NCBI RefSeq assembly: GCF_037153975.1
Contig: NZ_JBBAYJ010000006.1
Coordinates: forward strand, 1 to 64,000
Length of the DNA stretch: 64,000 nucleotides
DNA from: Aquipuribacter sp. SD81
GTDB lineage: Bacteria > Actinomycetota > Actinomycetes > Actinomycetales > JBBAYJ01
Reading direction: 5' to 3'
The position numbers were made by a program, and so were the translations under genes. Positions 3,962-52,100 of the stretch are shown piece after piece; the first letter of the stretch is position 1; each line of letters opens with the position of its first letter. The notes below the pieces were generated by a model, which ran no database searches, was not told where the DNA came from, and saw only the letters and a program-made list of their open reading frames with translations.

Positions 3962-6094
3962 ATGACCGCCGTGACGGACTCCACGACGGACATCACAGAC
4001 ACCTCGGGCGCCTCCGGGGAGCCGGGCGAGGGCACGAGCCCCTTCGCCGACCTCGACGCCTACCAGGCGCTGCCGCGGGTCGGCGGGCTCGCGCTCTCAC
4101 CGGACGGCACCCGCCTCGTCACCGCCCTGCAGACGCTCAACCCCGAGGCGAACCGCTTCGTCGGCGCGCTGTGGGAGGTCGACCCCACGGGCGAGCGCCC
4201 GGCCCGGCGCCTCACCCGCAGCGCGAAGGGCGAGCGGCTCGGCGGCTTCACCTCCGACGGGACGCTGCTGTTCACCTCGGCGCGGCCGGACCCGGACAGC
4301 AAGGGCGACGACGACGGTCCCGCGGCGCTGTGGGCCCTGCCGGCCGGCGGCGGCGAGGCCTCGGTCGTCGCGACCCGCCCCGGCGGCCTGGACGTCGCCG
4401 CGCTCGCCCGCGACTCCGGCGACGTCGTCGTGACGAGCGCGACGCTGCCCGGCGCCGACGACACCGCGGAGAGCGACGAGGAGCGCCGCAAGGCCCGCAA
4501 GGACGGCAAGGTCACCGCGATCCTCCACGAGGCGTACCCGGTCCGGTACTGGGACGGCGACCTCGGCCCGGACGCGCCGCGGCTGCTCGCCGGCCGGCTC
4601 GACGCCACCGGCACCGAGCCGGAGCTGGAGCTGCGCCAGGTGGTCGGTCACGTCGGCCACGGCCTGCGGCACGCGGTCGTCGACGTGACGGCGGACGGTC
4701 GGACCGCCGTCACCACGTGGGACACCATCGAGGGCCGGGCCGTCAGCCGGTTCTCCCTCGTGAGCGTCGACCTCGCCTCCGGGCGGCGACGCACGCTGCT
4801 GTCCGACGTCGACCACGAGTACGAGATGCCGACCATCAGCCCGGACGGCTCGACCGTCGCGCTGCAGGTCTACCGCCGCTCGACGCCGGACGACCCGGGC
4901 GACTACCGCCTCGCCGTCGCGCCGCTCGGGCGCCCCGGCGAGGACGGCGACGACGGTGACGGGACGGTCGAGGTCCGCGAGGTGGCCCCGGGCTGGGACC
5001 GGTGGTCGCACCGTCCCGTGTGGACGCCGGACGGGCAGGCGCTGCTCGTCACCGCCGACTCCGACGGCCGCGCGCCCGTGTTCCGCGTCGAGGTCGCCTC
5101 GGGCGAGGTCACCCAGCTGACCGGTGACGACGCCGCGTACTCCGACGTCGTCGTGTCGCGCGACGGCCGGCACGTGTACGCGCTGCGCGCCGCGGTCGAC
5201 GCCCCGCCCGCGCCGGTGCGGCTCGACCCGGTCACCCCCCACCAGACGCCCACCCTGCTGCGCGGGCCCGTGCCCGCCCCGGTCGTGCCGGGCCGGGTGG
5301 AGGAGGTGACGGCGACCGGCGAGGACGGCACGCCCGTCCGGGCGTGGCTGTGCCTGCCCGACACCGCCGACGCGGACCGTCCCGCGCCGCTGCTGCTGTG
5401 GATCCACGGCGGTCCGCTCGGGTCGTGGAACGCGTGGAGCTGGCGGTGGAACCCGTGGCTCGCGGTCGCGCGCGGGTACGCCGTGCTGCTGCCGGACCCC
5501 GCCCTGTCGACCGGGTACGGCCTGGAGTTCATCCGCCGCGGCTGGGGGCGGTGGGGCGACGCGCCCTACACCGACCTGCTCGCGGTCACCGACGCCGCGG
5601 AGGCGCACGAGGCCGTCGACGCGACCCGCACCGCGGCGATGGGCGGCAGCTTCGGCGGCTACATGGCGAACTGGGTGGGCGGGCACACCGACCGCTTCCG
5701 GGCGATCGTCACGCACGCGTCGCTGTACGCGCTCGACCAGTTCGCGGCCACGACGGACGCCGCGCACTACTGGGAGCGCGAGATGAGCCCCGAGATGACC
5801 GAGCACCACAGCCCGCACCGCCACGTCGAGCACTGGGTGACGCCGACGCTCGTCATCCACGGCGACAAGGACTACCGCGTGCCGATCGGCGAGGCGCTGC
5901 GGCTGTGGTGGGACCTCGCGAGCAAGGACACCGACGACCAGGGGAACCTGCCGCACAAGTTCCTCTACTTCCCCGACGAGAACCACTGGATCCTCACGCC
6001 CAACCACTCGACCGTCTGGTACCAGACCGTCTTCGCGTTCCTCGCCCACCACGTGCTGGGTGAGGAGTGGGTGACGCCGGAGCTCCTTCGCTGA
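3962..6094 (+). CDS. S9 family serine peptidase (acylaminoacyl/prolyl oligopeptidase type)
   Basis: Peptidase of 710 residues with no signal peptide, so probably cytoplasmic. Residues about 35-440 form the beta-propeller (repeated LSPDGTRL and ISPDGSTVAL blades) and about 450-700 the alpha/beta hydrolase domain. The catalytic triad is visible as Ser563 in GGSFGGYM, Asp637 in HGDKDYRVP and His675 in DENHWI. It would cut short peptides or remove blocked N-terminal residues. ATG at 3962 is chosen over the in-frame GTG at 3941, which adds only seven residues. The first 30 residues are Thr/Ser/Gly-rich and probably disordered. A strong hairpin follows the stop. Confidence 0.92.
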   Translation: MTAVTDSTTDITDTSGASGEPGEGTSPFADLDAYQALPRVGGLALSPDGTRLVTALQTLNPEANRFVGALWEVDPTGERPARRLTRSAKGERLGGFTSDGTLLFTSARPDPDSKGDDDGPAALWALPAGGGEASVVATRPGGLDVAALARDSGDVVVTSATLPGADDTAESDEERRKARKDGKVTAILHEAYPVRYWDGDLGPDAPRLLAGRLDATGTEPELELRQVVGHVGHGLRHAVVDVTADGRTAVTTWDTIEGRAVSRFSLVSVDLASGRRRTLLSDVDHEYEMPTISPDGSTVALQVYRRSTPDDPGDYRLAVAPLGRPGEDGDDGDGTVEVREVAPGWDRWSHRPVWTPDGQALLVTADSDGRAPVFRVEVASGEVTQLTGDDAAYSDVVVSRDGRHVYALRAAVDAPPAPVRLDPVTPHQTPTLLRGPVPAPVVPGRVEEVTATGEDGTPVRAWLCLPDTADADRPAPLLLWIHGGPLGSWNAWSWRWNPWLAVARGYAVLLPDPALSTGYGLEFIRRGWGRWGDAPYTDLLAVTDAAEAHEAVDATRTAAMGGSFGGYMANWVGGHTDRFRAIVTHASLYALDQFAATTDAAHYWEREMSPEMTEHHSPHRHVEHWVTPTLVIHGDKDYRVPIGEALRLWWDLASKDTDDQGNLPHKFLYFPDENHWILTPNHSTVWYQTVFAFLAHHVLGEEWVTPELLR

Positions 6095-14073: not shown

Positions 14074-16248
14074 GTGTCACCCGGCGGCTGCTGGGAGAGG
14101 GTGAGGAGCGTGGGCCAGGTGCACGCCGTCGACGGGGACGGCACGACGGGGGACAGGACGACGGCGACGTCGACGGGGTCGCCTGCGACCGGGACAGCGC
14201 TCCGCCAGCCGTGGCTGCACGACCTCGTCCTCGTGCTCGCGGCGCCGACCCAGGCGTGGTCCGGCGCCGACGGGCAGGTCCGCCGCGGCGGCGTGCAGGG
14301 TGTGCTGCACGCCGACCGCCGCATGCTCGCCCGCTGCGTCCTGACCGTCGGCGGCGAGGAGCCCGCACCCGTCGGGCACCACGGTGACGGCGGGGACGCG
14401 CACGTCTTCCTCGGCGTCGCCCGGGGTCTCGGCGACCCGGGCCCCGACCCCACCGTGCGGGTCGAGCGCCGGCGCGAGGTCGAGCCGGGGCTCCTCCGTG
14501 AGCAGGTCGCGCTCGTCTCGACCGCCACGAGCGCCGTCGAGTGCGACGTCGAGCTGCGGGTCGCGGTCGACCTCACCCCCCTCGACGACGTCAAGGCCGG
14601 TCGCAGCGGCACCGCGACGCCGCCCACCGAGGTCGGCCCGGAGCTCGTGTGGCGCGACGGCGCCGTGCGGGTCGGGCTGCGCGCGCACGGCGCGGAGGCG
14701 CGGGTCGAGCACGACGGGCCCGAGCCGGTCGTCGTGGTCCGCTGGCGCGTGCAGGTCGCGCCGGGCGGGACGGTGGCGCGCGAGCTCCTCGTCTCGCTCG
14801 CCGACGACCACGCGGTCGTCGTGAGCCCGGCGCGGCCGGCCACCTGGGCGGCCCCGGAGCTGCGCAGCGCGGACCGGCGGCTCGCGCCCGTCGTCGAGCA
14901 GGCCGTCGCCGACCTGCGGCTGCTGCGCCTGGCGACCGCGGACGCCCGCGACGAGGAGTTCCTCGCCGCGGGCGCGCCGTGGTTCCTCACGCTCTTCGGT
15001 CGTGACTCCCTGTGGGCGGCGCGCATGCTGCTGCCGCTCGGCACCGAGCTGGCCGCCTCGACCCTGCGGGTGCTCGCCCGCCGGCAGGGCCGCGGCGTCG
15101 ACCCCGACACGGCCGAGGAGCCCGGCAAGATCCTCCACGAGGTGCGCGGCCAGGCCTTCCACCTCGCGGCCGAGGCGCACGTCGTCGGCTCGGCCGACCG
15201 GTCCCTGCCGCCGGTCTACTACGGCACGATCGACGCGACCCCGCTGTGGGCGCTCACCCTCCACGACGCGCACCGCTGGGGTCTGGGCGACGACGAGGTC
15301 GCGCCGCTGCTGCCGGCGCTGGAGGGCGCGCTTACCTGGCTCGTGGAGCACGGCGACGCCGACGGCGACCACCTGCTGGAGTACGTCGACACGTCCGGGC
15401 ACGGCCTCTCGAACCAGGGGTGGAAGGACTCCGGGGACGCCGTCCGCCGGGTCGACGGCTCGCTCGCGCACCCGCCCGTCGCGCTGTGCGAGGTCCAGGG
15501 CTACGCCTACGCCGCCGCGCTGCGCGGCGCGGACCTGCTCGAGCGCTTCGGCCGTGGCGGCACCGACCGCTACCGCGAGTGGGCCGGACGGCTGCGCGCA
15601 GAGTTCGCGCGGCGGTTCTGGGTCGAGGACGCGGTCGGGCCGTTCCCCGCCATCGCCCTCGACGGCGACAAGCGGCCGGTCGTGTCGCTCACGAGCAACG
15701 TCGGCCACCTGCTCGGGACCGGCCTGCTCGACGCCGACGGCGTCGACGCCGTGGCGCGCCGCCTGGTCGCACCGGACATGCTGAGCGGCTTCGGCATCCG
15801 CACCATGTCGAGCGCGGCGGCCGGGTACAGCCCCACCGGGTACCACGTGGGGTCGGTGTGGCCGCACGACACCGCGATCTGCCTCGCGGGCCTCGCGGCG
15901 GAGGGCCGTGCGGAGGTGGCGCCGGTCGCCGAGGCGCTGCTCGCGTCGCTGCACGCCTTCGACGGCCGTCCGCCGGAGCTGTTCGCGGGCGACGCGCGCT
16001 CGGCCCACCCTGTGCCGGTCCCCTACCCCGCGGCGTGCCGGCCCCAGGCGTGGTCCGCGGCCGCGGCGGTGACGCTGCTGTCCTCGGTGCTCGGCCTGTC
16101 CGTCGACGTCCCCGCCGGGCACGTGTCGGCCTCGCCGGTCGCGCCGTGGCCGCTCGGCGCCACGGTCGTCGAGGGCCTGCGCGCGGGCGGCGACCCGCTC
16201 GCGGTGGCCGTCGACGACGCGGGCGCGGCGGAGGTCACCTGGCGCTGA
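14074..16248 (+). CDS. Glycogen-debranching-type glycosidase (amylo-alpha-1,6-glucosidase family)
   Basis: Protein of up to 724 residues. The N-terminal beta-rich domain of bacterial debranching enzymes covers about residues 40-290, and the (alpha/alpha)6 catalytic domain about 300-690, with PWFLTLFGRDSLWAARMLL, PPVYYGTIDATPLW, GLSNQGWKDSGDAV and VGSVWPHDTAICLAG. The last holds a likely acid/base region. No signal peptide, so it probably acts inside the cell on oligosaccharides brought in by the adjacent importer. The start is not settled: GTG at 14074 is used, but GTG at 14119 has AGGAG 10 nt upstream and the first 40 residues are not conserved-looking. Controlled by the LacI operators at 14025-14050. 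Confidence 0.88.
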   Translation: MSPGGCWERVRSVGQVHAVDGDGTTGDRTTATSTGSPATGTALRQPWLHDLVLVLAAPTQAWSGADGQVRRGGVQGVLHADRRMLARCVLTVGGEEPAPVGHHGDGGDAHVFLGVARGLGDPGPDPTVRVERRREVEPGLLREQVALVSTATSAVECDVELRVAVDLTPLDDVKAGRSGTATPPTEVGPELVWRDGAVRVGLRAHGAEARVEHDGPEPVVVVRWRVQVAPGGTVARELLVSLADDHAVVVSPARPATWAAPELRSADRRLAPVVEQAVADLRLLRLATADARDEEFLAAGAPWFLTLFGRDSLWAARMLLPLGTELAASTLRVLARRQGRGVDPDTAEEPGKILHEVRGQAFHLAAEAHVVGSADRSLPPVYYGTIDATPLWALTLHDAHRWGLGDDEVAPLLPALEGALTWLVEHGDADGDHLLEYVDTSGHGLSNQGWKDSGDAVRRVDGSLAHPPVALCEVQGYAYAAALRGADLLERFGRGGTDRYREWAGRLRAEFARRFWVEDAVGPFPAIALDGDKRPVVSLTSNVGHLLGTGLLDADGVDAVARRLVAPDMLSGFGIRTMSSAAAGYSPTGYHVGSVWPHDTAICLAGLAAEGRAEVAPVAEALLASLHAFDGRPPELFAGDARSAHPVPVPYPAACRPQAWSAAAAVTLLSSVLGLSVDVPAGHVSASPVAPWPLGATVVEGLRAGGDPLAVAVDDAGAAEVTWR

Positions 16249-16269
16249 GCCCTGGGCGAGCTGCCGCCG

Positions 16270-16340
16270 CCACGACGACATCGCCGATGCCCGTGACGCG
16301 TCCTGCGTGGCCGCCCGCGCGGTCGGTGGTGTCGCCGTGG
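16270..16340. repeat. 71-bp palindromic element, copy 1
   Basis: Begins CCACGACGACATC and ends GGTGTCGCCGTGG; the ends pair with a few mismatches, and flanking CGCCG/CGGCG extends the stem to 18 bp (16 matched). Lies 22 bp after the debranching gene and 79 bp before the AbiEi-like gene. Same exact length and same end sequences as the three other copies in the window. Confidence 0.8.
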
Positions 16341-16419
16341 CGGCGCGCGGGCTGTGGACAGCTGGGCCGCCTGTGGACGAGGCCCGTCACGGCGCCGCGC
16401 CGCCCGCGACAGTGGGCCG

Positions 16420-17331
16420 GTGCCGCTGTCCCCGACCCAGGTGCTCGCCGCCGCAGGAGGCGTGGCGCCGTACCGGCGCGTCGTCCGGCTGACGGGGCGC
16501 CACGCCCTGCGCCGGGCGGTCGCCTCGGGCGCGGTAGTGCGCCTCGGTCGTAACCGGTACGGCTTGCCCGGCCTGGACGAGCAGCTGGCCGCCGCCCACG
16601 GCGCGCGGGGGTGCCTGTCGCACCTGAGCGCGGCGGTCCACCACGGCTGGGGCGTGCTCCACCAGCCGGACCGGCTGCACCTCACGCTGCCTCGCGGGCA
16701 CAAGCACGGCGATCTGCCAGGCACGCGGTGGTTCGCGACGACGCTGGACGAGGCGGAGCTCGCGGCGGGCGTGACCTCGCCGCTGCGCACCGTGCTCGAC
16801 TGCGCACGGACCCTGCCGCTGCCTGCGGCCCTTGCGGTGGCGGACTCGGCGCTGCGTGCCGGCCACGTGCGGCGCGAGGAGCTGTGCGCCCTCGCCGACG
16901 TGACGCGGACGACGGGTGCCGTCGCCGCTCGACGTGTCGTCCGGCTCGCGGACGGTCGGGCCGCGAACCCGTTCGAGTCGGCGCTGCGGGCCGTCGTCCT
17001 CGGCACCGGCCTGCGCGGCTTCATCCCGCAGCTCGTCGTGACGGGGCCCGGGCTGCTCGCCGTCGTCGACCTCGGCGACCCAGACCGTCGGGTCGCCCTC
17101 GAGGCGGACGGCTACGGCGTCCACGGCACCCGACGGGCCTTCGCCCGCGACCTGGCGCGTCACGACGAGCTGCAGGCGGCGGGCTGGCTGACGCGTCGGT
17201 TCGCCTTCGAGCACGTGCTCCGTCGGCCGGCCTGGGTCGCGGAGCAGGTGCTGGGCGCGGTGGCCCAACGCGTCGTGCCCGCACCACGACGACACCGCCG
17301 ACGCGTCGGCGGAGTGCGGGACGCCGCGTGA
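16420..17331 (+). CDS. AbiEi-like winged-helix / DUF559 (Vsr-like) nuclease-fold protein
   Basis: Protein of 303 residues. The N-terminus (LSPTQVLAAAGG to RNRYGLPG, about 1-55) resembles the winged helix of AbiEi-type antitoxins. The middle has the common LSHLSAAVHHGWGVL block. The C-terminus (about 185-285) resembles DUF559 and very-short-patch-repair endonucleases, with candidate PD-(D/E)xK residues in NPFESALR, VVDLGD and ALEADG, then RRAFARDLARHDEL. Many actinobacteria carry such single genes; no cognate toxin gene adjoins, and the role is unknown. GTG at 16420 is preferred to an upstream ATG at 16354 because the conserved domain starts right there. A 71-bp palindromic element lies on each side; the downstream one overlaps its last codons. 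Confidence 0.8.
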   Translation: MPLSPTQVLAAAGGVAPYRRVVRLTGRHALRRAVASGAVVRLGRNRYGLPGLDEQLAAAHGARGCLSHLSAAVHHGWGVLHQPDRLHLTLPRGHKHGDLPGTRWFATTLDEAELAAGVTSPLRTVLDCARTLPLPAALAVADSALRAGHVRREELCALADVTRTTGAVAARRVVRLADGRAANPFESALRAVVLGTGLRGFIPQLVVTGPGLLAVVDLGDPDRRVALEADGYGVHGTRRAFARDLARHDELQAAGWLTRRFAFEHVLRRPAWVAEQVLGAVAQRVVPAPRRHRRRVGGVRDAA

Positions 17332-17354
17332 GGGGTGTCGCGGTGTCGTTGTGG
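17284..17354. repeat. 71-bp palindromic element, copy 2
   Basis: Ends CCACGACGACACCGC and GCGGTGTCGTTGTGG pair over 15 bp with a single G-T wobble. The element overlaps the last 48 bases of the AbiEi-like/DUF559 gene and supplies its C-terminal codons and stop. It is followed closely by the operator of the ABC exporter. Confidence 0.8.
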
Positions 17355-17371
17355 CGGCGGCGTAAGAAAGT

Positions 17372-17409: not shown

Positions 17410-18126
17410 ATGACAACTCCTGCCTCTCCACCCGTGCGGCCCCTAATCCGCCTGGAGCACGTGTCCAAGTGGTACGGGAGCGGCAGCAGCCGCTTCCAGG
17501 CCCTCGACGACGTCAGCCTCGACGTCCGCACCGGCGAGTCCCTCGCCGTCGTCGGCAAGTCCGGTTCCGGCAAGTCGACGCTCATGCACGTCCTCGCCCT
17601 GCTCGACCGGCCCGACGAGGGCCGGCTGCTGGTCGACGGCCAGGACGCCACGGACCTGCGCCCGACACAGGTCGGTCGGCTGCGCAACGAGCGCTTCGGC
17701 TTCGTCTTCCAGCAGTTCTTCCTCGTGCCGAGCGCGACGGTGCTCGACAACGTCGTGCTGCCGCTCACCATCGCCGGAGTGCCGACGGCGGAGCGCCGCC
17801 GCCGCGGCACGGCGGTGCTCGAGCAGCTGCAGCTCGCCGACAAGGCCGGCAACAGGGCGACCGCGCTGTCGGGCGGGCAGAAGCAGCGCGTCGTCATCGC
17901 GCGCGCGCTCGTCACCGAGCCGGACGTGCTCTTCGCCGACGAGCCGACCGGCAACCTCGACAGCACGACCGGGGCCCTCGTGGCCGACGAGCTGTTCGCC
18001 CTCAACCGCGAGCGCGGCATCACCCTCGTCGTCGTCACGCACGACGAGGAGCTCGCGGCGCGCTGCGACCGCCGGGTCCTCGTCCGGGACGGCCGCCTGC
18101 ACGCGCACGAGGAGGTGGCGGCGTGA
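17410..18126 (+). CDS. MacB/LolD-type ABC transporter ATP-binding protein
   Basis: ATPase of 238 residues. Walker A is GKSGSGKST (about residues 49-57), the signature is ALSGGQKQRV, Walker B is VLFADEPTGNLDS and the switch His is in VVTHDEE. The DEPTGNLDS form is characteristic of the MacB/LolD/FtsE group, which works with permeases of the FtsX type rather than importers. It is coupled to such a permease by a 4-bp GTGA overlap. Together they probably export a drug, peptide or lipoprotein-like substrate or sense an envelope signal. ATG at 17410, 19 bp after a strong palindromic operator. Confidence 0.94.
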   Translation: MTTPASPPVRPLIRLEHVSKWYGSGSSRFQALDDVSLDVRTGESLAVVGKSGSGKSTLMHVLALLDRPDEGRLLVDGQDATDLRPTQVGRLRNERFGFVFQQFFLVPSATVLDNVVLPLTIAGVPTAERRRRGTAVLEQLQLADKAGNRATALSGGQKQRVVIARALVTEPDVLFADEPTGNLDSTTGALVADELFALNRERGITLVVVTHDEELAARCDRRVLVRDGRLHAHEEVAA

Positions 18127-19424
18127 GGACCACCGACCTCGTCCGCTCGGCCGTCGCCAACACGTTCCGCAGCCGGCTGCGCACCACGCTCACGGTGCTC
18201 GCGCTGTTCGTGGGCGCCTTCACCCTCACCCTCACGACCGCGCTGGGCGCGGGCGTCACCGACTACGTGACCCGGCAGGTGGACTCCCTCGGCGCCGACG
18301 ACGTCCTCGTCGTGACCGCGGCGGCGCAGGACACGTCCGACGGCCCGGCCGCCTACGACCCCGACACGTCCACTCCCACGGGCGGGCAGGCGGCCTCGCC
18401 GTTGCCGGGCGCCGGGGCCGGCGGCTCGCTCACCGAGGCGGCGCTCGACGAGCTCGCCCAGGTCGACGGACTGTCGGACATCGAGCCCGTCCGGTCCACC
18501 GCCGTCGACTACGTGCGGCCCGTGGACGGCGGCGACGACCAGCGCTACCAGCTGAGCATCGCCCCGACGGCGTCCATCGCCCGCGCCGACCTGGCCGCGG
18601 GCGCTCAGCTCGACACCGACGGCGACGCCCGCCAGGTGCTGCTGCCCGAGGAGTACGTCGAGCCGCTCGGCTTCGCCGACGCGGAGGACGCGGTGGGCGA
18701 GACGGTCGTGCTCGCCGTCACCGACGTGCTCGGCGAGCAGCACGAGGTGGAGGCCGAGCTCGTGGGCGTCACGAACCCGAGCCTGCTCGGCGGGGGCGGC
18801 GGCGCGAGCACGGCGCTCGTCGACGAGCTCGCAGGGCTGCAGGCGGCCGGGGTCGACCAGCGACCGCTGTACGCGGTGGCGACGGCCCGCTTCGACGCCT
18901 CGCTCGACGACGACGCCGTCCAGGCCATCAAGGACGACGTCGCGGAGCTCGACATGAGCGCGCAGACGGTGTCCGACCAGCTCGGCCTCGTCACGACCGT
19001 CATCGCGGGCATCACCGGGGTGCTCAACGCCTTCGCGGTCGTCGCGCTCGTCGCTGCTGCGTTCGGCATCGTCAACACGCTGCTCATGAGCGTGCAGGAG
19101 CGGACGCGCGAGATCGGCCTCATGAAGGCGCTCGGCATGAGCAACGGCCGTGTCTTCGGTCTGTTCAGCCTCGAGGCGGCGTTCCTCGGCCTGCTCGGCA
19201 GCGTGCTCGGCGTGGTCGTCGCCGTGGGCGTCGGCACCGGCCTCAGCTCGGCCCTCGCGGCGGGTCCGCTCGCGTCCCTCGGCGGTCTCGACGTGCTGCT
19301 GTTCCGGCCGGAGTCGCTGCTCGGGGTGGTCGCACTGATCGTCGGGATCGCGTTCGTCGCCGGTACGCTCCCGGCTCGACGCGCGGCCCGGCAGCAGCCG
19401 ATCGACGCGCTGCGGTACGAGTGA
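18123..19424 (+). CDS. MacB/FtsX-type ABC transporter permease
   Basis: Permease of 433 residues with the MacB layout: one N-terminal membrane segment (about 20-42, LTVLALFVGAFTLTLTTALG), a large extracytoplasmic domain (about 45-290) rich in Asp and Ala, and three C-terminal segments. The coupling region LLMSVQERTREIGLMKALGM is the FtsX-domain signature. The extracellular domain contains a Pro/Gly/Thr linker around residues 78-100 that looks disordered. GTG at 18123 overlaps the ATPase stop. The TetR gene starts 25 bp after it ends. Confidence 0.93.
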   Translation: MRTTDLVRSAVANTFRSRLRTTLTVLALFVGAFTLTLTTALGAGVTDYVTRQVDSLGADDVLVVTAAAQDTSDGPAAYDPDTSTPTGGQAASPLPGAGAGGSLTEAALDELAQVDGLSDIEPVRSTAVDYVRPVDGGDDQRYQLSIAPTASIARADLAAGAQLDTDGDARQVLLPEEYVEPLGFADAEDAVGETVVLAVTDVLGEQHEVEAELVGVTNPSLLGGGGGASTALVDELAGLQAAGVDQRPLYAVATARFDASLDDDAVQAIKDDVAELDMSAQTVSDQLGLVTTVIAGITGVLNAFAVVALVAAAFGIVNTLLMSVQERTREIGLMKALGMSNGRVFGLFSLEAAFLGLLGSVLGVVVAVGVGTGLSSALAAGPLASLGGLDVLLFRPESLLGVVALIVGIAFVAGTLPARRAARQQPIDALRYE

Positions 19425-19449
19425 GGGCACGACTGAGGCCGACAGGACG

Positions 19450-20118
19450 GTGACGGCTCGGATGGTGAGCCAGGCGGACCCCGAGGGTGGCGTCCCGCCC
19501 GCCGTGCAGGCCCCGCGGAACGCGCGCGGGCTGGCGACGGCGCGGCGGATCCACCGCTCGGCGGTCCGCCTGGCCGCCGAGGGCGGGCTGGACGCGCTGA
19601 CGGTCGACGCCGTCTGCGCCGACGCCGGCATCAGCCAGCGGACGTTCTTCCACCACTACCCGACGAAGGACGACGCCCTCCTCGGCCTCGAGCTGCCCTC
19701 GATCGCGCGGGAACGGGCGCACCGCTACCTCAGCGACCCGACCGTCCCGGTCCTCGCGGGAGCCGTCGCCCTCATCGACCTGCCGGCGGGGGCGGGGGAG
19801 GACCCCGCGACGCACGCCGCCCAGCTGCGGCTGCTCGCGGGGTCCCCGCAGCTGCAGGCGCGCCAGGCCGCCCGCTTCCTGCCGATCCTCGGCGAGCTGC
19901 GTGGGCTGGTCCGGCTCCGGCTGGAGGCGCTCGCCCGGGCGGACGGGCGGACGGTCGACGCCGCGGAGCTCGACGCCCAGGCCGACGTCGTGACCGCGCT
20001 CGGGGCCGCGCTCGTCAACACCGCCGCGCGTCGCGTGGTCGACTCCCCCGACGCGGGCCTGCCGGACCTCGCGTCCGTCGTCGACCCGCTGCGGCCGGTC
20101 TGGGACCGCCTCGTCTGA
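19450..20118 (+). CDS. TetR-family repressor of the ABC exporter operon
   Basis: Regulator of 222 residues from GTG 19450 (218 from ATG 19462). The TetR helix-turn-helix is at about residues 45-75 (DALTVDAVCADAGISQRTFFHHYPTKDDALL); the rest is the ligand-binding domain. It is the third gene of the unit behind the ABC ATPase and permease, with a 25-bp gap. The 19-bp palindrome at 17372-17390 ahead of the operon is its probable site. Ligand unknown, likely the exporter's substrate. Confidence 0.9.
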   Translation: MTARMVSQADPEGGVPPAVQAPRNARGLATARRIHRSAVRLAAEGGLDALTVDAVCADAGISQRTFFHHYPTKDDALLGLELPSIARERAHRYLSDPTVPVLAGAVALIDLPAGAGEDPATHAAQLRLLAGSPQLQARQAARFLPILGELRGLVRLRLEALARADGRTVDAAELDAQADVVTALGAALVNTAARRVVDSPDAGLPDLASVVDPLRPVWDRLV

Positions 20119-20142: not shown

Positions 20143-20213
20143 CCACGTCGACACAACGAACGCCCGCGCGTGGCCTCAGCGGGGCCTCGAGGGCCTTCGT
20201 CGTGTCGGCGTGG
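20143..20213. repeat. 71-bp palindromic element, copy 3
   Basis: Ends CCACGTCGACACAACGAA and TTCGTCGTGTCGGCGTGG pair over 18 bp with two mismatches, then 4 more bp after one mismatch. It lies in the 147-bp gap between the convergent TetR and sigma-factor genes, where it could also stop transcription. Confidence 0.8.
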
Positions 20214-20265: not shown

Positions 20266-21426
20266 TCAGGGGCCGACGGCGTTGAGCCGGGCCGCCTGCC
20301 GCAGGAGGTGGTCGCGCTCGGCCGCGCTCGTCGCGGCCCGTGCCGCCTCGGCGTAGAGCCGCGCCGCGTCGAGCAGGTCGCCGGCCCGCTCGTGGAGGTA
20401 GGCCTCGGCGGCGGTCCGTCGCGGTACGCCGTCCGGCACCTGCGCCAGCGCGGCCAGCCCCGCCCGCGCGCCGTCGGCGTGCCCGAGCGCCACCGCGCGG
20501 TTGAGCCGCACGACCGGGCTGTCGGTGAGGCCGAGGAGCTCGTCGTACCACTCGACGACCTGCACCCAGTCCGTCTCCTCGGTGCTGGGGGCGTCGGCGT
20601 GCAGCGCCGCGACCGCCGCCTGCGCCTGGAACTCCCCGAGCCGGTCACGGGCGAGCGCGGCCTGCAGCACGGCGACGCCCTCCGCGACGAGCGCGGTGTC
20701 CCACCTCGAGCGGTCCTGCTCCGCGAGGGGCACGAGCCGGCCGTCGACCACCCGCGTGTCTCGGCGCGCGTGGTGCAGGAGCATGAGCGCAAGCAGCCCG
20801 TGCGCCTCCGGGTGGTCGACGAGCGCGGCCAGCTGCCGCGTGAGCCGGATGGCCTCCATCGCGAGGTCGACGTCGCCGGAGTACCCCTCGTTGAACACGA
20901 GGTAGAGCACGCGCAGCACGGTCGCGACGTCGCCGGCCCGGTCGAAGCGGGCGCCGGCGACGGTCCGCTTCGCGCGGCTGATGCGCTGCGCCATGGTCGC
21001 CTCCGGCACGAGGTACGCCTCGGCGACCTGCCGGGTCGTGAGGCCGCCGACCGCGCGCAGCGTCAGTGCGACCGCCGAGGCCGGCGTGAGCGACGGGTGC
21101 GCGCACAGCAGGTACAGCGCGAGGGTGTCGTCGGCCTCGCGCACGGGACCGGGAGCCGGCTCGACCTCGACCGTCTCCTCCCGCCGACGACGGGACGACT
21201 CGGAGCGGACCGCGTCGAGGTGCCGCCGCCACGCGACCGTCGCGAGCCACGCGCGCGGGTCGCGCGGCGGGTCGGTGCGCCACACGCGCAGCGCCTCGAC
21301 GAGCGCGTCCTGGACGGCGTCCTCGGCCGCCCCGAAGTCGACCCCGCGACGGCCGAGGAGCCCGATCACCTGCGGGACGAGCGCGCGGAGCGCCGCCTCG
21401 TCGACCGCCGGGCCCGAGGCCGTCAC
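20266..21426 (-). CDS. ECF42-type RNA polymerase sigma factor with C-terminal TPR-like extension
   Basis: Sigma factor of 386 residues. Region 2 is at about 20-85 (GAAEDAVQDALVEALRVW, PRAWLATVAWRRHLDAVR), region 4 about 115-170 (TTRQVAEAYLVPEATMAQRISRAKRTV), and the remaining 200 residues form the long helical extension (FNEGYSGD, LHHARRDTR, RLNRAVALGHADG, YLHERAGDLLDAARLY) that marks the ECF42 group. This group has no anti-sigma factor and is encoded beside DGPF (YciI-like) proteins, as here. GTG at 21426 lies 17 bp after the stop of the DGPF gene, so the pair forms one operon. Confidence 0.93.
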   Translation of the reverse strand: MTASGPAVDEAALRALVPQVIGLLGRRGVDFGAAEDAVQDALVEALRVWRTDPPRDPRAWLATVAWRRHLDAVRSESSRRRREETVEVEPAPGPVREADDTLALYLLCAHPSLTPASAVALTLRAVGGLTTRQVAEAYLVPEATMAQRISRAKRTVAGARFDRAGDVATVLRVLYLVFNEGYSGDVDLAMEAIRLTRQLAALVDHPEAHGLLALMLLHHARRDTRVVDGRLVPLAEQDRSRWDTALVAEGVAVLQAALARDRLGEFQAQAAVAALHADAPSTEETDWVQVVEWYDELLGLTDSPVVRLNRAVALGHADGARAGLAALAQVPDGVPRRTAAEAYLHERAGDLLDAARLYAEAARAATSAAERDHLLRQAARLNAVGP

Positions 21427-21443
21427 GACCGGCTCACCCGGCC

Positions 21444-21851
21444 TCACTCGGTGACGGTCGGCGGCGCGGTGAGGAACGGCCGGACCTCCAGCCACTCGTG
21501 GATCGGTCGGCCACCCGCGCCGGGCGCGGCCGACAGCTCCCCGGCCAGCTCGACGGCCCGCTGCTCGCTGTCGACGTCGACGACCATCCAGCCGGCGACG
21601 AGGTCCTTGGTCTCCGCGAACGGCCCGTCGGTGACGGGCGGGCGGCCCTCGCCGTCGTAGCGCACCCACATGCCCTCCGGTGCGAGCGCCTGACCGTCGA
21701 CGTACTCGCCGGACTCCTGCAGCCGGGTCGCGAAGTCGTCCATGTACCGGACGTGGGCCTCGATCTCCTCCGGCGTCCACCGGTCCATGGGGACGTCGTT
21801 CACCCCCGCCGGCGCGCCGCGGTAGTGCTTGAGGAACAGGTACTTCGCCAT
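21444..21851 (-). CDS. YciI/DGPF-domain protein paired with ECF42
   Basis: Small protein of 135 residues. It carries the name-giving motif DGPFAETKD at about residues 75-83 and the family ending PIHEWLEVRPF. The fold is a ferredoxin-like dimer; the catalytic or signalling role of DGPF proteins is not settled, but they are the standard targets of ECF42 sigma factors. ATG at 21851. A sequence fitting the recalled ECF42 promoter lies 50-76 bp upstream, which points to positive autoregulation of the operon. Confidence 0.92.
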   Translation of the reverse strand: MAKYLFLKHYRGAPAGVNDVPMDRWTPEEIEAHVRYMDDFATRLQESGEYVDGQALAPEGMWVRYDGEGRPPVTDGPFAETKDLVAGWMVVDVDSEQRAVELAGELSAAPGAGGRPIHEWLEVRPFLTAPPTVTE

Positions 21852-21952: not shown

Positions 21953-22023
21953 CCACGACGACACCACGGCGGGCCCAGGACGGCATCGCGGGCGCTCTGG
22001 TGCCGGAGGTGGTGTCGTCGTGG
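21953..22023. repeat. 71-bp palindromic element, copy 4
   Basis: Ends CCACGACGACACCAC and GTGGTGTCGTCGTGG form a perfect 15-bp inverted repeat around a 41-nt loop. It lies between the convergent-side start of the ECF42 operon and the stop of the unknown gene at 22052, 26 bp upstream of the ECF42-type promoter. The most perfect of the four copies. Confidence 0.85.
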
Positions 22024-22051: not shown

Positions 22052-22717
22052 TCAGTGGTCCTCGCAGCAGCGCTCCGGGCGCTCCTTCTCGAACGGCACC
22101 ATGACGCCGCCGACGGCGGGCTGCACGTGCAGCACGACCCGCCCGGCCTCCACCCGCGGCCGCACGAAGCCGCGCGTGTCGACGAGCGTCGCGGGGGTCG
22201 ACGGCGCCCCGCCCACCACGACGACGTCGTCGACCCACGACCGCGCGAGCACGTCGGCGACGGTGAGCGTGCCGCGCAGCACGTCGGAGCCCGGGTAGCG
22301 CACGAGGCGCCCCGAGGCGCCCGTCACCGACGCGGCCACCGCCACCCACGCACCCGCGACCGCCCCCGGCGCGTCACCCCGGACGAGCCCGTCCCCCAGC
22401 CCCGTCCCCGTCACGACCACCGCGCCCGACGCGACGCCGGTGCGACGCACCTCGGCGTCGACCACGGCCCCCAGCCCCTCGAGCACCGCCGGCGGGGGCA
22501 GCCCGAGCCCGTCCGGCACCACGGCGCTGACCGCGGAGTGCGGCTCGCCGCCCGAGACCGCCGCCGGGACACCGTGCGTCGCGACGAGCAGGGCCTCGAG
22601 CGGCCCCCTGCCGCCCGGGGCCCCGACCGCGAGCCCGCCGACCACCTCGCACACCAGGTGCGCGAGGTGGTCGGCGTCCTCGTCGTACCGGGACCAGGCG
22701 TCGACCCCGACGATCAC
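22052..22717 (-). CDS. Unrecognised 221-residue protein downstream of the PHP hydrolase
   Basis: I do not recognise the family. The protein is Val/Ala/Gly-rich and looks like a soluble alpha/beta protein with repeated short hydrophobic strands (VIVGVDAWSRYDEDADHL at the start, VVVVGGAPSTPATLVDT later). It ends in PFEKERPERCCEDH, an acidic tail with adjacent cysteines that could bind metal. No signal peptide or membrane segment. GTG at 22717 lies 7 bp after the stop of the Tat-exported PHP metallohydrolase, so the two are almost surely co-transcribed and may act on the same compound or in metal supply for it. Confidence 0.75.
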   Translation of the reverse strand: MIVGVDAWSRYDEDADHLAHLVCEVVGGLAVGAPGGRGPLEALLVATHGVPAAVSGGEPHSAVSAVVPDGLGLPPPAVLEGLGAVVDAEVRRTGVASGAVVVTGTGLGDGLVRGDAPGAVAGAWVAVAASVTGASGRLVRYPGSDVLRGTLTVADVLARSWVDDVVVVGGAPSTPATLVDTRGFVRPRVEAGRVVLHVQPAVGGVMVPFEKERPERCCEDH

Positions 22718-49109: not shown

Positions 49110-52100
49110 TCAGGCGTCCCGCTCGCGCCTCGCGCCCCGGCCGCCCGCCGCCACCATGCCGGCCCCGCCGAGCACGAGCAGCAGCGCGAGCAGCAGGCCG
49201 ACGGTGACCGACGCGCCCGTCCTGGCGAGCGCGCCGTGCTGCCCGCCGGCTGGGTGCGTGGTCGGCGTGGGGTGCGTGGTCGGCGTGGGGTGCGCGGTCT
49301 GCGTGGGGTGGGGGGCCGGCGCGGGGTCCGTCGTGGGGCTCGCGGTCGTGGGCGTGGGGCCGGGCACCGCGGGGGGCAGGGGCAGGCTCGCCGTCACGGG
49401 CGCGGCGGAGGTGACGTCGGCCGTGGCCGGCGCCGACGTCGCACCGGTCGCGGGGTCGGTGGCCGTGCAGGAGTAGGACCCGTACGGCAGCTCGGCGAGA
49501 GCGAAACGGCCCTGCCCGTCCGACACCGTGGTCATGACGACGTCGTCGTCGGTGCCGAGCCGGTCGTCGAGGCCCGCCCAGCGGCACGTGACGGGGGCGT
49601 CGCGCACCGCGGTCGTCGTGCCGTCGACCACGACGGTGCCCTGCACCGCGCCGGTGCCGGTGCCGGCGAAGTCGGCGACCGCGGAGCGGCCGGTCGTGGT
49701 CGTGACGGCGACGGACCAGTCGAGGCGGCCGTCGCTGTCGGAGGTGTAGGCGAAGCCCGCGAGGTCGACGCTCGCCGTCACCACCCACGACCCCGAGGGC
49801 AGGCCCGCGAAGCGGTAGGAGCCGTCGGCGGCGGTGCGGGTGGTCACGGGTGTCGCGGCGCGCCGCACGGGGCCGGCCGCGGCGAGCTGCTCGGCGCGGG
49901 CGAGCGTGACGGTGACGCCGGGCAGGGGCCACTCGCCGGTGTCGAAGCGGCCGTCCTCGTCGCGGTCGAACCACACGAGGCCGTGCACGTCGGCCGTGCC
50001 GGTCGTCGGGCTCGGGGTCGGGGCCGGGGTCGTCGTCGGGGTCGTGGTCGGGGTGGTGGTGGTCGGCGTGGGGCTGGGGGTCGTGGTCGGCGTGGTCGGC
50101 GTGGTGGCGGTCGGCGTCGGGTCGGGTGTCGGGGTGACGCTGGGCTCGACGGACGGCTGGGTGGTCGGCTCGGTGCTCGGCTCGACCGAGGGCCCGGTGC
50201 TCGGCGCGACGGACGGCTCGGGGCTGGGCTCGCTGGTCGGTCCATCGCTCGGATCGGCGGACGGCTCGGCGGACGGCTCGACCGACGGTTCGACGCTCGG
50301 CGCGACCGAGGGCTCCGTGCTCGGCTCCGTGCTCGGCTCCGCGCTCGGCTCGACCGAGGGCTCGACCGACGGCTCGACCGAGGGCTCGACCGACGGTTCG
50401 ACGGACGGTTCGACGGACGGCTCGACCGACGGCTCGACACTGGGCTCCGGCGTCGGCTCGGGGGTCGGCTCGGGGGTCGGCTCCGGCTCGGGCTCGCCCG
50501 GCACGTACGAGACCGCGGCCTCGACCCCCCGGCCGGTGACGGTGTCCGTCACCCGGTAGCGCAGCGAGTCCGGGCCGGTCCAGCCGTCGGGCGCCGAGTA
50601 GCGAAACCAGCCGCGGCCGTCCTCGTCGAGGTCGCCCTCGACGGGCGGGACCGCGAGGCGCACGGCGCACCGGTCGCACTGCTCGGCGGTGAGCACCCGC
50701 GTCTCGACCGTGCCGCCGGGTGCCACGGGGACCGTGCGGTCGGCCGGGGCGACGAGCAGCCGCACCGTCGAGGTGACCGCGACGCCGTGGCCGTCACCGG
50801 CCGTGTAGGAGAAGGTGACGACGCCCGCGCTGCCCGCGGCGGGGGTCCACGACACGGTGGCGCCGTCGGTGCCGGCCGTGCCCGACGTCGCGGGGCCGAC
50901 CGTCGTCACCGTGCACCCGGGGCACGTGTCGTTCGCGAGCACGTCGAGGCCGGACAGGGACTCGCCGTGGTCCAGCGCGGCGGAGTCGGGCCTCGCGTCG
51001 CTCACCTCCACCCGCAGCACGGCGCTCGCGCGCCGCGACGTCGCCGGGTCCGTCACGGCGTACCCGACGGTGACCGTGCCGGTGACGCCGGCGTCGGGCG
51101 CGACCCGGACCAGCCCGTCGACCACGGAGACGGTGGCGGCGCCGTCGACCGACTCGACGACCGGCACGCAGCCGGTGCAGGCGTCGTTCGCGAGGACGTC
51201 GACGTCGACCGGCACCCCGACGCCGGTGGCCGCCGCGTCGTCAGCGGTCGTCGGCGCGACGAGCACCCGCACCGTGGCCTCCACGGTGGCGCCGGTCGCG
51301 GGGTCGAGCACCGAGTAGCGCAGCTCGTCCCGTCCGCTCACGCCCGGGCCCGGCAGGTACACGACGCGACCGGCGACGTCGACGGACCCCGTGCCGCGGG
51401 CGGGGTCGGTCGCGAGCGAGACCTCGCAGCCGGGGCACTCGTCGTTGTCGAGGACGGGGACGGTGACTGGCGCGCCGGCCGTCGTCTCGGCCTCGTCGTC
51501 GGCCACGGCGGGCGGCGCGCTGACGTGGACCGTCACGGTCCCGGCCGCGGTGCCGCCGCCGGAGTCGGCGACGTCGTACGTGAACGACGTCGTGCCGGTG
51601 TCGACGGGGGAGAAGGTGACGATGTCGCCGCTGCGGCTCACCGAGCCCGAGCCGGGCGGGCCCACGGCGGTGACGCGGCAGCCCGCGCACACGTCGTCGG
51701 CGGCCGGCAGCAGCTGCACGTCGGTACCGAGCGTCGTGCGGACCACGTCGTCGACCGCCACCGGCAGCACGCGGACCACGAGCACCGCCGACGTGGTCGC
51801 CGCGCCTGACCCCAGCGTGTAGGTCGCACGGGCGGTCCCGGAGAAGCCCGCCGGCGGCACGAGGCGGACCACCCGGCGGCCCGAGCCGTCGGTGACGACA
51901 TCGGCGCTGCCGGCGCTCGGCCGGTCCACCGACACGAGCGCGCAGGCGGTGCACGGGTCGTTGCTGCGGACGTCGACGGTCACCGGCTCGCCGGCGCGCG
52001 TCGTCACCGTGTCGTCCACGGCGCCGTCGACCCGGACGGTGAGGGTCGCGGTGTCGCTCGCGGTGCCGGACACCGAGCTCGTCACCCGGTAGGTCGCCGT

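Follow-up and report, generated by a model that had tools for sequence, protein, structure and literature searches.

A nuclease gene bracketed by copies of a dispersed 71-bp palindrome, and similarly bracketed relatives across Actinobacteria

What is a solitary nuclease gene doing between two copies of a palindrome? The question arises from a 64,000-nucleotide stretch of Aquipuribacter sp. SD81 (NZ_JBBAYJ010000006.1, positions 1 to 64,000; hereafter the window), in which a gene at 16420-17331 lies between two copies of a 71-bp element. The first-pass annotation of this DNA likened the arrangement to that of RAYT genes and REP palindromes, in which a single-strand nuclease moves the palindromes, and suggested that the encoded protein acts on the element. 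We asked what the element and the protein are, whether the pairing extends beyond this locus, and which explanation best accounts for it. The part of the window that concerns us contains the following features.

16270-16340, no strand assigned: element copy a, 71 bp, CCACGACGACAT...GTGTCGCCGTGG, upstream of the nuclease gene; its ortholog in the sister species G001 is at C4:106111
16420-17331, plus strand: gene for an AbiEi-like winged helix joined to a DUF559/MTES_1575 (Vsr/EDxHD-type) nuclease, 303 aa, GTG start
17284-17354, no strand assigned: element copy b, 71 bp, overlapping the stop of the nuclease gene
17434-20118, plus strand: ABC ATPase, FtsX permease and TetR genes, between copies b and c
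20143-20213, no strand assigned: element copy c, 71 bp, between the convergent TetR and sigma-factor genes; found by covariance-model search
20266-21851, minus strand: ECF-type sigma factor and YCII genes, between copies c and d
21953-22023, no strand assigned: element copy d, 71 bp; its arms match perfectly over 15 bp, and the nearest stop, that of the minus-strand gene 22052-22717, is 28 bp away

A two-armed element and a Vsr-like nuclease

Both copies that the annotation had placed around the nuclease gene are present at those sites. Copy a lies 21 bp past the stop of a glycogen-debranching-like gene (14110-16248) and 79 bp ahead of the GTG at 16420. Copy b overlaps the end of the nuclease gene (stop at 17331) by 48 bp, and its ortholog in G001 (C4:107106) is equally placed relative to the stop. 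Each runs from CCAC to GTGG, and the outer arms reported at 16263 and 17342-17361 are complementary, as claimed. Between 16249 and 22051, the four elements bound and separate gene modules in a cassette-like layout; in G002, another species in the genus, the orthologous locus lacks this stretch. For the sigma factor in the interval between copies c and d, G001 has only 43-47% paralogs, and no paralog was found in G002 at the threshold used. Elsewhere, the window contains a further long inverted repeat at 2099-2206 (48-nt arms, 79% complementary, 12 nt apart) and, at 50094-50513, degenerate repeats of 12-bp period with 24 copies in register.

To count copies, we used a covariance model made from the clear window copies and then rebuilt on 17 copies. 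The window's genome (G000) contains 12 copies: four in the window, two each on C16, C9 and C4, and one each on C36 and C23. G001 contains seven, while neither the model nor a fixed-spacing search found any in G002. An exact-spacing pattern search, allowing at most three mismatches in 24 positions, returned 12 places in G000 (one of them a false match in coding sequence) and seven in G001; the reversed pattern, run as a control, had no match in G000. About 195 other genomes of the 198 searched gave zero or one, rarely two, three-mismatch matches of the coding type with the same spacing. By this fixed-spacing pattern, real copies are confined to G000 and G001 among the 198 genomes.

The length of the element is nearly constant, at 71 bp in all 17 copies aligned from G000 and G001 and 72 bp in one further copy. 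What is conserved over this fixed span is a pair of inverted 12-bp arms, CCACGACGACAY and RTGTCGNYGTGG, while the 47-bp center is not, so that the annotation's 71-bp element holds as two arms at a set distance and not as a conserved whole. Past about position 13, pairing of the center across the symmetry axis is no better than chance. In four pairs of orthologous copies from G000 and G001, the arms are identical at 21-23 of 24 positions and the centers at 18-35 of 47. The element nevertheless has a direction despite its palindromy, since positions 5-6 of the left arm (GA) are nearly fixed while their right-arm partners, positions 66-67, vary as NY (position 67 is always C or T, opposite a G in 16 of the 17 copies).

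All 17 aligned copies lie between genes or at gene edges, most of them directly after a stop codon and two in gaps between divergent genes. Two copies, b (by 48 bp) and its ortholog in G001, overlap a predicted gene end, and another overlaps a predicted start by 15 bp; genes were called with a simple codon-usage caller, on which these distances depend. Rfam had no match at the element. A reading of the element as a terminator and nothing else was rejected, given its near-constant length and centers that pair no better than chance.

The winged helix and Vsr-like nuclease fold ascribed to the protein are supported by profile matches. Its N-terminal winged-helix region matched the PADLOC AbiEi model (3e-6), and the protein matched PF18741 (MTES_1575; 6.4e-6) and PF04480 (DUF559; 7e-4) in Pfam, both below the curated cut-offs. 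A search of the PDB with the single protein gave no match. A profile of 33 family members matched 3hrl (6.7e-13), the mobile-intron endonuclease 3r3p (2e-5), which we take to be I-Bth0305I, and the Vsr structures 1cw0, 1vsr and 1odg (0.02-0.04). Across these 33 divergent members, E186, D217 and E228 are invariant and D230 and D244 (both 90% or more), R247, G255 and W256 nearly so. H235 has a frequency of 71%; the conserved acidic and histidine residues of an EDxHD/Vsr-like active site are in place. Pfam and NCBIfam scans, in which the matches were of DUF559/MTES_1575/AbiEi type, revealed no Y1/HUH (Y1_Tnp) domain. Because the nuclease half of the AlphaFold model is unreliable (pLDDT mostly 30-46 from about residue 201), we did not use it for a fold search. 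No viral relatives were confirmed. The neighbors of the gene encode the debranching-like enzyme and the ABC ATPase, with no AbiEii (DUF1814) nucleotidyltransferase toxin gene beside it.

Empty sites, bracketed relatives and dispersed palindromes

Comparison between species uncovered empty sites of the kind that the annotation had suggested looking for. In G000, the interval between CheX and MoeA consists of an OsmC-like gene (L084:1971-2554) between two 71-bp elements; in G001, the whole unit is missing between the same neighbors, which are adjacent with 36 bp between their stops (L157). PPS and Uma2 are likewise adjacent without an element in G001, and an element is present in G000. Behind its debranching-enzyme gene, G002 has other genes and, beyond them, orthologs of the window genes at 22052 and 22725; the nuclease gene is absent there, as is any element. 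Orthologs of the ABC-FtsX-TetR genes lie on another contig in G001, without elements. Thus, elements, and genes between elements, come and go, through gain or loss. As the genus is represented by three genomes, the joint absence of gene and element from G002 is a single data point.

We examined 60 DUF559/AbiEi-type genes, taken from small-ORF matches of PF18741 in a phylum-wide search and picked without regard to repeats. For each gene, the upstream and downstream flanks (±300 bp) were compared, and genes scoring 18.5 or more were called bracketed. The enrichment that the annotation had proposed as its check was strongly positive: repeats bracketed 36 of the 60 family genes, several of which share a genome (G206) or a genus (g74) and are not fully independent, compared to 1 of 227 other genes of the same loci (Fisher 1.5e-28). 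Scores were bimodal, falling at 18.5 and above or at 13.5 and below. The 24 family genes with no bracketing within ±300 bp include L218, which was assigned to the wrong open frame. For genes initially called at less than 240 aa, the starts were re-extended, with 25 of 60 bracketed in the earlier count and 36 in the later; controls were not re-extended, which favors the family somewhat, but 25/60 versus 1/227 was already decisive. In a first sample of relatives, which includes the window gene as well as close orthologs and paralogs of it, 23 of 32 scored 18 or more, and the top seven flank scores among 237 genes of the earlier loci all belonged to DUF559-family genes. The PF18741-type domain occurred in 143 of 398 genomes in one Pfam search, large multidomain proteins included.

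The downstream copy starts at most 70 bp from the stop in 34 of the 36 bracketed genes (median 0.5 bp). Repeat sequences vary between loci. A crude self-complement test rates 15 of the 36 bracketing repeats as significantly palindromic; longer direct or tandem repeats occur as well (L215, L213, L216 and the C4 paralog, L019).

The annotation would have given up its reading if other copies of the gene family in the genome lacked the element and had no enrichment of it nearby. The 71-bp element is indeed missing at three paralogs in G000, of which C15 and C4 at least have different bracketing repeats of their own; no element common to all paralogs was found. Since these paralogs carry their own repeats, as RAYT genes have repeat-specific REPs, that refuting condition needs rewording. 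The C15 paralog is flanked by 76-bp elements with arms GGCCACAGCGCAGGA and TCCTGCGCTGTGGCC, which it has in common with its G001 ortholog; the G002 ortholog has different arms. Around the C4 paralog (L019:4196-4790 and 5838-5963) are repeats of GGTCGGGRCGTCCGGAT with a 52-bp period, about 11 on the stop side and three on the start side, which are not single palindromes. Likeness between palindromes was seen only where the proteins are near-orthologous (about 71-91% identity) and was gone at about 50-63%, even within a genus. Probably, repeat and protein diverge together quickly, with each paralog working on its own palindrome.

Other families of palindromes are also dispersed. We queried 13 genomes with 18 concatenated palindromes, one from each of 17 gene loci and a 71-bp element as control. 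At least nine of the gene-locus palindromes recur in their own genome, at numbers of sites, both gene flanks included, that range from at least three to at least 17: at least 17 in G004, at least 13 in G022, at least 12 and at least 10 in G028 (two genes, two palindromes), at least seven and at least five in G010, at least five in both G009 and G025, and at least three in G027. Among the matches listed, the only ones across genomes were of the L068 type in G028, which is of the same genus as G010. The copies in G004 (72 bp in 13 of 15 aligned) and G022 (66 bp in 10 of 10) have sharp ends and unrelated flanks. Most of them lie between genes, often behind a 3′ end; of eight G022 copies, one falls inside a predicted gene. 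Inspection of the flanks of these two families by eye revealed no target-site duplications.

How the palindromes may be spread

From the bracketing and its phylum-wide enrichment, the dispersal, the near-fixed length, the sharp ends (in two genomes), the conserved arms, the presence and absence between species and the conserved active site, we infer a dedicated partnership, REP/RAYT-like though not RAYT-homologous: the nuclease would bind and cut its own palindrome and spread it in this way. We consider this reading reasonably probable. Binding probably involves a protein dimer, with one N-terminal AbiEi-type winged helix on each arm of the palindrome; arms and spacing would therefore be conserved and the center free to vary. 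The EDxHD enzyme I-Bth0305I dimerizes on a target of nearly 60 bp (PMC3943268), a precedent that fits two arms at a fixed span. The C-terminal Vsr/EDxHD-type nuclease would nick or cut at the element. As a hydrolytic nuclease alone cannot join DNA ends, movement of the element would need host repair. Repair or replication of the break may occasionally copy the element, sometimes together with the DNA between two elements. New sites would be intergenic, mostly behind stop codons, and the gene would remain flanked by two copies.

On a wider scale, the chances seem to us evenly balanced that these elements form a separate class of miniature mobile DNA across Actinobacteria. Its members would be palindromes of about 60-130 bp with two half-sites each, read by a dedicated nuclease with an AbiEi winged helix and a Vsr/EDxHD domain. 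With no classical transposase involved, they would be copied to other places in the genome, at times carrying genes as cargo between two copies.

Alternatively, the palindromes could exist beforehand and be spread by another agent, with a free-standing homing nuclease gene that cuts a solo palindrome, is copied in by recombination and ends up flanked by two copies. Homing of this kind would account for the two whole flanking copies and the element-OsmC-element units, and the nuclease domain is related to that of the homing endonuclease I-Bth0305I, with its dimer on nearly 60 bp (PMC3943268). However, the palindromes then need another agent for their spread, every paralog comes with a palindrome of its own, and no element of the G000 family was found in G002, where this gene copy is absent. 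We regard this route as unlikely.

A regulatory role fares less well in our judgment and is quite improbable. Here, an AbiEi-like autorepressor would use the upstream palindrome as its operator, with the dispersed palindromes forming a regulon or serving as terminators. Second copies at the gene's own stop are needless for autoregulation, and the dispersed copies lie mostly behind stop codons of unrelated genes rather than at promoters, even though arms and spacing are conserved in the manner of operator half-sites and the N terminus matches AbiEi (PADLOC). The promoters of AbiEi and Rv2827c do contain 23-bp inverted repeats to which these proteins bind (PMC7319586), but copies of the element are present or absent between sister species, and the nuclease residues are conserved.

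Generic repeats around any accessory gene (terminator hairpins or insertion hot spots), with no tie to this family, would suit the variable region at the window locus and the elements that sit mostly at 3′ ends, some as long GC-rich hairpins, but are very improbable, as the control genes of the same loci (1/227) already largely refute them and terminators would not show near-fixed length, sharp ends or paralog-specific families. We leave a small share of the probability to explanations other than these four.

If the nuclease-palindrome partnership is real, unrelated enzymes have given rise to a REP/RAYT lifestyle on at least two occasions. No function is assigned to the DUF559/MTES_1575 genes, although they are common in Actinobacteria; a tie to their own dispersed palindromes would give them a concrete, testable role and make the family a candidate for the enzyme that partners palindromic repeats of actinobacterial genomes that lack an explanation. 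With the paralog-specific palindromes, matched pairs of protein and site would be at hand for studying the recognition of long DNA sites. In openly available literature text, with subscription journals mostly outside the search, we found no link of DUF559 to palindromic or inverted repeats in this sense. We rate the partnership as new because the defining feature of RAYTs is absent and no such link was found.

Comparison with known systems

Integron cassettes and their attC sites resemble the window locus in layout only, with imperfect inverted-repeat sites that have conserved ends and a variable center and lie behind modules (a-DUF559-b-ABC/FtsX/TetR-c-sigma/YCII-d). To our knowledge, the element arms do not resemble attC. 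The AbiEi antitoxin of the type IV toxin-antitoxin system AbiE shares the N-terminal winged helix and binds inverted repeats near its own gene; in the window protein, a nuclease domain takes the place of the antitoxin C terminus, and no AbiEii-type toxin gene adjoins. The EDxHD homing endonuclease I-Bth0305I and Vsr have related nuclease domains (3r3p, 2e-5; Vsr, 0.02-0.04). Unlike these enzymes, the window gene lies between two whole copies of a dispersed repeat, with no intron or intein seen, and encodes an N-terminal AbiEi-type winged helix.

The closest parallels in arrangement are REP/REPIN-RAYT systems, REPtrons and TIRtrons, which also have one nuclease gene between two palindromes, repeat-specific genes and short, dispersed intergenic repeats. 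In REPtrons, the nuclease gene is flanked by two palindromes or inverted repeats, and the dispersed REPs are intergenic, with a preference for sites behind 3′ ends and for gaps between tandem or convergent genes (PMC3733652). RAYT genes are single-copy and vertically inherited (PMC8049555). The window family has the same two features, a copy of a palindromic repeat on either side of the gene and dispersal of that repeat between genes of the same genome (12 copies). The elements differ from REPs in their near-fixed length of 66-72 bp and in having two arms with a variable center, in the three families measured, and neither of the REP foot tetranucleotides, GTAG or CGTC, was found at the ends of the 17 aligned 71-bp copies. 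Thus, the annotation's RAYT/REP comparison stands for the arrangement, and far beyond the window (36/60 versus 1/227; empty sites), but not for the enzyme: RAYT is a Y1 HUH tyrosine transposase, whereas the window gene encodes a Vsr-like nuclease of the DUF559/MTES_1575 type, joined to an AbiEi winged helix, in which no Y1/HUH domain was found. Defined by anatomy alone, the system could count as a variant of the REPtron kind.
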